Below, piece after piece: positions 14,957 through 17,072 of a stretch of 32,859 nucleotides of DNA. The stretch spans positions 1 through 32,859 of the forward strand of contig JAJZET010000131.1 in assembly GCA_021805685.1 (NCBI GenBank), written 5' to 3'. The notes under the pieces were generated by a model. It made no database searches. It was not told the DNA's origin and saw nothing but the letters and a program-made list of their open reading frames with translations. A program made the translations under genes and the position numbers. The stretch's first letter is position 1. Each line of letters starts with the position of its first letter. The DNA comes from Pseudomonadota bacterium. GTDB lineage: Bacteria > Pseudomonadota > Gammaproteobacteria > Xanthomonadales > Rhodanobacteraceae.

Positions 14957-15323
<367 letters not shown>

Positions 15324-15330
15324 TTGCGTT

Positions 15331-15368
15331 GCCCAACCGCCCCGGCCTTGCGCCGGGCGCGGTTGGGC
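15331..15368. other. Long GC-rich hairpin after rnpB
   Basis: GCCCAACCGC at 15331-15340 pairs with 15359-15368, and CCCGGC (15341-15346) with GCCGGG (15352-15357), giving a 16-bp stem with one bulged base. There is no T-run on either side. It begins about ten bases after the RNase P RNA, so it may mark the 3' end of the precursor or help termination or processing. Confidence 0.55.
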
Positions 15369-15571
15369 GCAGCGTCGACGGAGGCCATGAACGGGCGATT
15401 CATGCGGGATCCCTGCCAGCGGTCGTCGCGATCCGTTTCGCGGTGCCGGTGTGGCGCACCCATTGCAAGAAAATTTCTCTGTATTCAAGCATCTTGCGAA
15501 GGTTCCTCAGAAAGTGCTGGAAACACCGCCACAACTTCGCCTTTCCCTTTGATTCACAAGCAAAAATTTCC

Positions 15572-15600
15572 TTGACAGTCTCAGAGGCTGAGACTATCGT
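15572..15600 (+). promoter_or_regulatory. mraZ (dcw cluster) promoter with a palindromic spacer
   Basis: TTGACA (15572-15577) and TATCGT (15595-15600) are 17 bases apart, a near-consensus sigma-70 promoter. The spacer itself is a perfect inverted repeat, GTCTCAG-AGG-CTGAGAC (15578-15594), extendable by one A/T pair to 19 bases. AT-rich DNA precedes it. The predicted start is near 15607, about 35 bases before the mraZ GTG. Confidence 0.75.
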
Positions 15601-15634
15601 GGATTTCGGTGTGAAATCGTGGGTAATCGTGGGG
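15600..15634 (+). promoter_or_regulatory. MraZ operator: phased TGGGN-type repeats
   Basis: Four five-base units start exactly ten bases apart: TGGAT (15600), TGTGA (15610), TGGGT (15620) and TGGGG (15630). The last three spacers are TTCGG, AATCG and AATCG. In E. coli, MraZ binds direct TGGGN repeats with five-base spacers next to its own promoter; these match best in the last two units. The final unit doubles as the Shine-Dalgarno (GGGG, seven bases before the GTG). Confidence 0.7.
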
Positions 15635-15641
15635 TTAGTTC

Positions 15642-16088
15642 GTGTTTCAAGGCGAAACCGCCATCACTGTCGATGACAAGGGCCGTCTGGCCATACCGAC
15701 CGCATACCGCGAGTCGGTGGCGGGCGCCTGCGCGAACCGGCTGGTGATCACCTACAACCCGTTCGAGCTGGGCTGCCTGTGGCTGTTCCCGCATGCCGAG
15801 TGGGAGAAGGTGCGCGATCAGGTCAATGCCCTGCCCAAGGTCAAGGCGGCCCATCGCGACATGCAGATGAAGCTGGTGGGCGCCGCGACCGTCGTCGAGC
15901 CCGATGGCGCCGCACGCATCCTGCTGCCGGCCAGCCAGCGCGCGGCGGCGGGCATCGAGAAGAGGGCGGTGCTGCTGGGCATGGGCAACAAGTTCGAGCT
16001 TTGGAGCGAGCAGGCCCATCTGGCGAAGATCCGCCAGACGCTCGGCGAAGACGACATCACAGACGACATGGCCGCGCTGCAGCTGTAA
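15642..16088 (+). CDS. mraZ: MraZ, transcriptional regulator of the dcw cluster
   Basis: A 148-residue protein with two tandem SpoVT/AbrB-like halves. The first contains [20 protein letters not shown] (about 7-26) and the second [20 protein letters not shown] (about 81-100); both hold the swapped-hairpin DNA-binding pattern D-x-x-G-R. MraZ forms a ring and represses its own operon in E. coli. Translation starts at GTG, giving family FQGETAI; no ATG is available. It is the first gene of the cluster, followed after 48 bases by rsmH with its own GGGAGGG ribosome-binding site. Confidence 0.95.
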
Positions 16089-16136
16089 GGCGGCGCGAAA
16101 TTTTTACGGACGGGCAACGGGTCGGGAGGGTGCGGC

Positions 16137-17072
16137 ATGGCCGAAATGCGGCACATCCCGGTAATGCTGGACGAAGCGGTGGAGGGCCTTGCCGTGCAGG
16201 CAGGCGGGCGTTATCTCGATGGCACCTTTGGACGCGGCGGTCACGCCCGCGCCGTGCTGTCGCGCCTCGGCCCCGGCGGTCGCCTGCTGCTGATGGACCG
16301 CGACCCGCAAGCGATTGCCGAAGCACGTAGGGCGTTCGCCGACGAGCCGCGCGTGGCGATCCGCCATGCCAATTTCGGGAGTCTGGCCGAGTGGGACGAG
16401 ACCGTCGGCGGGCTGGACGGCGTGCTGCTCGATCTCGGCGTGTCCTCGCCACAGCTGGACGAGGCCGCGCGCGGCTTCAGCTTCATGGCCGACGCGCCGC
16501 TGGACATGCGCATGGATACCAGCCAGGGCGAAAGCGCGGCGGATTTCCTTGCGCAGGCCTCCGAGCGCGAAATCGCCGACGTGCTGTGGCAGTTCGGCGA
16601 GGAGCGCTTCAGCCGCAAGATCGCCCGCGCCATCGTCGAACGCCGCGCCGAAAGCCCGCTGACGCGCACCGGCGAACTCGCCGCGCTGATCGAGCGCGTG
16701 GTGGGCCGGCGCGAACCGGGCAAGCACCCGGCCACGCGCAGTTTCCAGGCGTTGCGCATCCGGGTGAACGGCGAACTGGACGCCGTGCGCCACGGGCTGG
16801 ATGCCGCGCTGTCGCGGCTGAAGCCGGGCGGCCGGCTCGCGGTCATCAGCTTCCACTCGCTGGAAGACCGTATCGTCAAGCAGTTCATCCGCGACCATAC
16901 CGGCCGTGTACAGGGCAGCCGGCGAGGGCCGCCGACTGCCGCGAAGCCCGCTGAGCTGGTTGCGGTGGGCAAGGCGCAATTTCCGTCCGATGCCGAGCTG
17001 GCGGCCAATCCGCGCGCTCGCTCGGCCGTGCTGCGCGTGGCCGAGAAGCTGCCGATGGCGGAGTGCGCATGA
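16137..17072 (+). CDS. rsmH: 16S rRNA (cytosine(1402)-N4)-methyltransferase
   Basis: Methylates N4 of C1402 of 16S rRNA, the same nucleotide whose ribose RsmI (at 14089) methylates, so both enzymes for m4Cm1402 are encoded within 3 kb. The 311-residue product has the SAM motif [10 protein letters not shown], the DRDPQAI acidic turn, [23 protein letters not shown] in overlapping pieces, and RVNGELDAV and [13 protein letters not shown] in the C-terminal half. A GGGAGGG lies seven bases before the ATG. The stop overlaps the ftsL ATG. Confidence 0.97.

Follow-up and report, generated by a model that had tools for sequence, protein, structure and literature searches.

Which factor, if any, reads the inverted repeat that fills the spacer of the mraZ promoter in Rhodanobacteraceae, and what does it do there? 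The window analysed here, a stretch of 32,859 nucleotides from a bacterium of this family (contig JAJZET010000131.1, assembly GCA_021805685.1), carries TTGACA-GTCTCAGAGGCTGAGAC-TATCGT at positions 15572-15600, upstream of mraZ, with a spacer of 17 bases composed of GTCTCAG (15578-15584), AGG (15585-15587) and CTGAGAC (15588-15594) (Table 1). The sequence and coordinates given for this palindrome by a first-pass annotation proved exact on re-reading. A promoter scan of positions 15000-16200 returned a single sigma-70-like site, TTGACA/TATCGT, matching 10 of 12 consensus letters with 0.1 expected per 1.2 kb, and RNase P RNA lies upstream of the promoter. The GTGG/GTGT repeats that follow are presumably MraZ boxes, i.e., direct GTGG-type repeats with a 10-base period, a pattern that the dyad, as an inverted repeat, does not share; the annotation had rightly kept the two apart. 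The first of these repeats overlaps the -10 box, and the GTG of repeats 2-4 is invariant in 125 promoters. Among 20 predicted proteins of the window, a subset of its genes, MraZ was the sole transcription-factor match in Pfam, and an RNA-family search found none at the dyad, three matches falling far under their cut-offs.

Table 1 Features in and around the mraZ promoter of the window, numbered from its first letter
Feature	Position	Strand	Basis
RNase P RNA	14959-15321		
Conserved block 5' of the -35 box	15548-15560		
-35 box TTGACA, mraZ promoter	15572-15577	+	Direct sequence reading and promoter scan
Left half-site GTCTC of putative operator	15578-15582	+	Tree of 93 promoters: 1.2 parsimony steps per column
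7-base centre AGAGGCT	15583-15589	+	Variable apart from first base A
Right half-site GAGAC of putative operator	15590-15594	+	Mean 2.0 steps per column; pairs with left half-site
-10 box TATCGT	15595-15600	+	Sequence reading and promoter scan
Four GTGG/GTGT repeats	15599-15632 (15599, 15609, 15619, 15629)	+	10-base period
mraZ, first gene of division/cell-wall cluster	15642-16088	+	GTG start; Pfam MraZ E 2.6e-24; NCBIfam TIGR00242

To follow the dyad across the order, 200 mraZ upstream regions were collected (80 named loci, the window and other genomes of the same order, with many duplicates), and 163 distinct promoters were kept, L140 and L200 being dropped as they did not fit the extraction rule. 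Of these promoters, 128 belong to Rhodanobacteraceae (family f1). The motif GTC[T/G]C-N7-G[A/C]GA[C/T] adjoining the -35 box is kept in 114 of the 128, 89 of them carrying the exact GTCTC-N7-GAGAC, and also occurs in two of six promoters of family f4, with none in the 27 of family f2 (presumably Xanthomonadaceae) or the two of f3. The 14 Rhodanobacteraceae promoters in which it is absent or broken come from genera g7, g9, g17, g26 and part of g5, together with L191, where the right arm reads GAGGC, and L098. The last of these, from a congener of the window's organism with a 1.5-Mb genome (G007), combines an 18-base spacer with the lack of a dyad. Across the family, the -35 box matches consensus at 6/6 letters in 124 of 128 promoters and at 5/6 in the remaining four, the spacer measures 17 bp in 125 and 18 in three, and the dyad lies 0 bases from the -10 box in 109 of 114 cases and 1 base from it in five.

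Column by column, the dyad behaves as two short half-sites around a free centre. On a tree of 93 of 94 promoters (L098, with its 18-base spacer and no dyad, was dropped), the -35 box changed 0.17 times per column and the -10 box 0.67 times, both values being lowered because the extraction rule fixes TTGAC and T[A/T]...TG. The left arm required 1.2 steps per column and the right arm 2.0 (1, 2, 1, 1 and 5), against 15.1 in the neighbouring sequence 5' of the promoter. The first base of the centre, an A without a conserved partner, required none, and the other six required 7-23 each, averaging 12.2 per column. The first-pass annotation had held that arms varying freely between relatives beside fixed hexamers would speak against its reading; the arms turned out nearly as fixed as the hexamers, and it is the centre that varies freely. 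Pairing follows the same division: in 43 distinct spacers of the family, selected for their left half-site, the match of the five arm pairs runs from the outside in at 88, 95, 100, 77 and 98%, compared with chance-level values of 37, 35 and 19% for the inner three. The spacing is held as well, as N7 is kept in two g5 promoters whose hexamers are 18 bases apart (L141 and L182, one with an altered right arm), and in four Frateuria-type promoters (L009, L021, L031 and L043) the whole dyad sits one base further upstream with the -35/-10 distance still 17. The variants GTCTC/GCGAC and GTCGC/GAGAC both occur at mraZ, and the conserved unit amounts to two 5-base half-sites, each with T or G in fourth place, around a 7-base gap (5+7+5).

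This revises the picture of a perfect palindrome in several respects. The 7+3+7 repeat is present as annotated, yet only its outer five pairs are conserved, and such palindromes are not rare here (12 perfect ones in the window against 5.7 expected, the mean of 20 Markov resamplings); its perfection is therefore partly luck, and the evidence lies in position and conservation. The further A/T pair said to extend it exists too, but its two members belong to the hexamers, closing the -35 box and opening the -10 box, and it is also found in related promoters lacking the dyad. As for compensating changes between the arms, both arms are conserved, but true double changes are few, most variation being GTCTC against GTCGC in either half-site. 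Taken on these terms, the mraZ dyad is very probably an operator, that is, a predicted protein-binding site, and this operator-like conservation bears out, from the DNA sequence, the annotated suggestion of a second regulator of the dcw cluster. A palindromic spacer as an order-wide property was considered and rejected, as the stems of 42 dyad-less spacers do not exceed those of shuffled spacers in length (p 0.33).

Two further elements were observed around these promoters. In nine of the 27 f2 promoters (L143-L169; e.g., L158 and L163), the -35 box lies inside an inverted repeat TTG-TTGA-CAAC, which could be a different operator replacing the spacer dyad. The block 5' of the -35 box in the window reads TTTGATTCACAAG and in many relatives CTTGATTCACAAG, where it forms a short inverted repeat CTTG-N5-CAAG; at 5.6 parsimony steps per column it changes less than the sequence further upstream (15.1) and is perhaps another operator or a UP-type element.

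If a protein binds the mraZ dyad, its other sites may reveal its role. Of 194 family genomes, 97 contain the exact form AGTCTC-N7-GAGACT, five of them having a second copy, and the reversed control hits eight genomes. It is found once in the window's genome, likewise when one mismatch is allowed, and, among the matches listed, the positions compared lie directly upstream of mraZ. With the -35 box attached, it occurs in two of 369 genomes of the class, both Rhodanobacteraceae. The exact form is thus essentially private to mraZ, and its additional copies were rejected as a regulon, their frequency not exceeding the control and their contexts showing no pattern, one lying inside a gene. The degenerate form GTCKCRNNNNNYGMGAC gave 6-9 sites per genome in six close relatives against 9-15 for the control, which counts against a regulon, and most of those with a context read (39 of 46, then two more) lie inside genes, and nine intergenic ones are singletons with no common theme. 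At polymerase and rmuC genes, a longer frame extending upstream of the conserved start led the rough ORF rule to class several sites as intragenic. At gene starts, however, more than one species has the degenerate form ahead of mraZ, a gene for a Y-family DNA polymerase, rmuC, recC and a RES gene, so that the search for further copies proposed by the annotation led to repair genes: three of the four recurrent targets besides mraZ act in DNA repair or recombination. The recC (Exonuc_V_gamma) dyad was seen in just two close relatives (G000 and G011). The RES dyad, GTCKC-N7-GMGAC, was seen in three species (L360 in G000, L361 in G013 and L362 in G010), between an Xre/MbcA antitoxin gene and the RES toxin gene and 2.7-5 kb from another WYL gene; by eye, no -10 stands at activator distance from it in these three species.

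The polymerase site recurs in three species of the six-relative scan. A close orthologue was present in 16 of 30 family genomes and none in 14, and with L247 dropped for want of upstream DNA, 15 remained. All 15 carry the dyad within one mismatch of GTCKC-N7-GMGAC, 12 exactly, and of the 12 outside the discovery set nine are exact and three have one mismatch; resampled sequence reaches this level in 3.7%. In 13 of 15, the dyad stands 10 bases before a TATACA-like -10, the other two having no -10 by the rule used. As the mismatch counts rest on the mraZ-derived consensus, aligning these 13 promoters on their -10 alone offers a less circular check, and columns GTC, T, C and G, C/A, GAC emerge from it.

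At rmuC, the six-relative scan had shown the dyad in G000, G009, G010, G011 and G013. Of 27 family loci (30 less L302-L304), 18 have the dyad within one mismatch, as do 15 of the 24 outside the discovery set, and seven of the 27 have three to four mismatches, which counts against the site. A second set, comprising f2 and family members without the mraZ dyad, started from 25 loci, of which 12 were dropped as divergent or fragments; nine of the remaining 13 lie within one mismatch, including six of nine f2 loci, giving 27 of 40 loci overall against 5-7% in resampled sequence. The start of rmuC was estimated for L298, L299 and L301, and L299 has an exact dyad outside the stretch used for the mismatch counts. 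In the g9 genome G022, an exact dyad precedes a distant RmuC, and mraZ there lacks one. A TA-type -10 follows the dyad in 22 of 40 loci, at a distance of nine bases in 19 of them and of 10 bases in three. The rmuC site is therefore more widespread than the mraZ site and probably older. In f2 loci such as L339, L341 and L342, the right half-site GAGAC is intact where the left has a mismatch, and stands nine bases before TA(A/C)ACT, reminiscent of the one-sided motif of PafBC.

Placing the dyads relative to the promoters separates mraZ from the repair genes. With the -10 box taken as -12 to -7, the polymerase dyad is centred near -31, and its half-sites flank the place expected for a -35 box; the best -35 over three spacings has 1-3 of 6 letters at polymerase and rmuC genes, although nine of 13 polymerase promoters reach 3/6, which counts against the absence of this box. 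Activation is therefore the most likely effect of the factor at these genes, whose dyads surround a missing -35 and stop 9-10 bases short of the -10. At mraZ, the centre of the dyad falls near -21, some 10 bases downstream of that position and between a near-perfect -35 and the -10, and none of 116 mraZ dyads has TAnnnT 8-11 bases past it, so there is no activator-type promoter at this site. With that route unavailable, steric hindrance of RNA polymerase would be the simplest outcome, and repression at mraZ by the bound factor is reasonably likely.

These observations suggest a shared, damage-linked regulator of repair genes and mraZ, an explanation that as a whole stands at about even. A dimeric transcription factor would bind the dyad and would count DNA-repair genes across the order among its targets. 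The factor, probably damage-responsive, would activate the polymerase and rmuC genes, and a strong site in the 17-base mraZ spacer of Rhodanobacteraceae, displaced downstream by about one helical turn, would let it hinder RNA polymerase and lower the expression of the division and cell-wall cluster. Shutdown of the dcw promoter by damage is thus a prediction.

A LexA-type repressor sitting on all the dyads, with damage derepressing repair genes and mraZ together, would account for the nature of the targets and for operators that overlap promoters. Yet the polymerase and rmuC promoters lack a good -35 (1-3/6), which would be odd if only derepression were needed, the LexA boxes of Xanthomonadales are TTAG-type, and damage-induced division genes would be unusual. 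This alternative is improbable.

Whether mraZ and the repair genes share a factor at all can be judged from the motif itself. A symmetric weight matrix built from 36 polymerase and rmuC sites places 15578 first in the window, at 22.3 bits with the next best site at 10.5; the mraZ site takes the top rank in 80 of 80 named loci, and scores above 8 bits occur in 116 of 128 family promoters but in 0 of 27 from f2. This evidence is partly circular, the mraZ consensus having been the means by which the repair-gene sites came to light. If mraZ had a regulator of its own, the resemblance being coincidental, the mostly single-copy nature of the exact form would fit, with second copies restricted to five of 194 family genomes. 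Such a private regulator would leave unexplained the common half-sites, the T/G choice at position 4 and the N7 gap in the same organisms, as well as the lead of about 12 bits that a matrix trained on repair genes gives to mraZ, and is quite improbable. It is likely that one and the same factor binds the mraZ dyad and the repair-gene dyads.

The first-pass annotation had likened the dyad to a MerR-like or repressor operator; in the MerR manner, the same or another factor would activate mraZ from inside the spacer. The dyad does lie between the -35 and -10 boxes, as in operators of the MerR family, and is exactly centred on the spacer. MerR promoters, however, have spacers of 19-20 bp, which their activators need, whereas the mraZ spacer is almost always 17 bp (18 in three of 128), already optimal and joined to a near-perfect -35, and the other targets show the geometry of WYL activators. 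The MerR suggestion therefore does not hold for the operator, and activation of this kind at mraZ is very improbable. Regulators other than MraZ do have precedents at this promoter. PdhR belongs to the GntR family, and its motif is unrelated to the mraZ dyad. It acts on the dcw promoter of Escherichia coli, where, according to the available text of the report, it responds to pyruvate and binds mraZ weakly (PMC3265435). NtrX of Rhodobacter sphaeroides likewise binds upstream of mraZ, but is described in the accessible part of its source as a response regulator and activator with the proposed motif GCAn9TGC (PMC7240162).

Conservation without any protein, the arms being kept through contacts with RNA polymerase or as an RNA hairpin, would suit arms that directly adjoin both hexamers, but is the least probable reading by far, as outgroup spacers keep both hexamers without arms, the dyad lies 5' of the predicted start and so outside the mRNA of the mraZ promoter, the GTCTC/GCGAC and GTCGC/GAGAC variants break a pair in a manner that suits half-sites and not a hairpin, and the repair-gene dyads are placed differently relative to the -10.

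For the shared regulator, a conserved DriD-like WYL protein is the leading candidate for the dyad-binding factor, although this assignment is tentative. WYL domains are present in 20 of 20 genomes tested, with one to four WYL proteins per genome, also in genomes without the mraZ dyad, which counts against the assignment. The DriD-like protein itself (~328 residues, MDRYER type; L307:1066-2049 in the window's genome) occurs in all 20, with a mean column identity of 79% and an invariant CSRAT.YRD helix. Its presence in genomes whose mraZ has no dyad would fit rmuC being the older target. Its sequence matches PafBC at 7.8e-17 and DriD (9pfq) at 9.6e-9, the entry 9PFQ being named as DriD in the available text of PMC12340889. 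A predicted structure (mean pLDDT 75, pTM 0.51) has DriD as its best fold match in the PDB (E 8.9e-18), with a TM score of 0.37 over the whole chain, so that the domain arrangement is poorly matched. NCBIfam holds no family for this protein, and no dyad was found near the 20 genes in stretches of 3.2 kb (2.3 kb in one case), giving no sign of autoregulation.

DriD of Caulobacter crescentus is described, in the portions of the sources available, as a homodimeric WYL activator of an SOS-independent damage response (PMC12340889, PMC4211646), with sites that have a 7-base gap, straddle a -35 of 1-2/6 matches and keep a fixed distance from the -10 (PMC12340889). The repair-gene promoters resemble this, with inverted half-sites and a 7-base gap at polymerase (15 of 15) and rmuC (27 of 40) genes and a poor -35 bracketed by the site at a fixed -10 distance. 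The proposed link between damage and division is a further likeness, as is the fold match of the candidate; the SOS and DriD checkpoints are reported, as far as the accessible text goes, to halt division by making an inhibitor protein (PMC4211646). At mraZ, by contrast, the site does not cover the -35 at that distance, the dyad abutting the -10 and leaving the -35 intact, and the half-site is GTC[T/G]C instead of ATACGAC. The DriD consensus given in the text available, ATACGAC-N7-GTCGTAT, has GAC beside the gap, whereas here GAC lies outside and is turned outward, so the letters do not match. Division is moreover blocked in Caulobacter through the inhibitor DidA and not through the dcw promoter, and in the available descriptions DriD is an activator, not a repressor, which leaves repression of mraZ without precedent in DriD. 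PafBC of mycobacteria, a WYL activator whose motif tTGTCRgtg-8nt-TannnT stands a fixed 8 nt before TAnnnT in the accessible text (PMC5656591), is comparable in that the repair genes here have their right half-site 9-10 nt ahead of the -10, but is a heterodimer reading one asymmetric motif in actinobacteria.

By analogy with DriD, the signal that activates the WYL protein would be single-stranded DNA formed on damage. The full combination, in which an ssDNA-sensing DriD-like WYL protein serves as order-wide repair activator and as direct dcw repressor in Rhodanobacteraceae, through a moved operator and with no division inhibitor, is rather unlikely to hold in every part. In a literature search covering titles and the beginnings of abstracts, with few subscription papers, neither the motif nor a WYL regulator at mraZ was reported among the matches listed, which is weak evidence of absence. 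The analysis thus proposes an order-wide repair regulon, comprising a translesion polymerase, rmuC and perhaps recC, with a defined operator, and now names a candidate regulator for the dyad. Judging from promoter sequences, one regulator may serve both slower division and the induction of repair. If true, this would be a simpler circuit than one relying on an inhibitor, in which, in one family, the master promoter of division would be occupied directly by the repair regulator.
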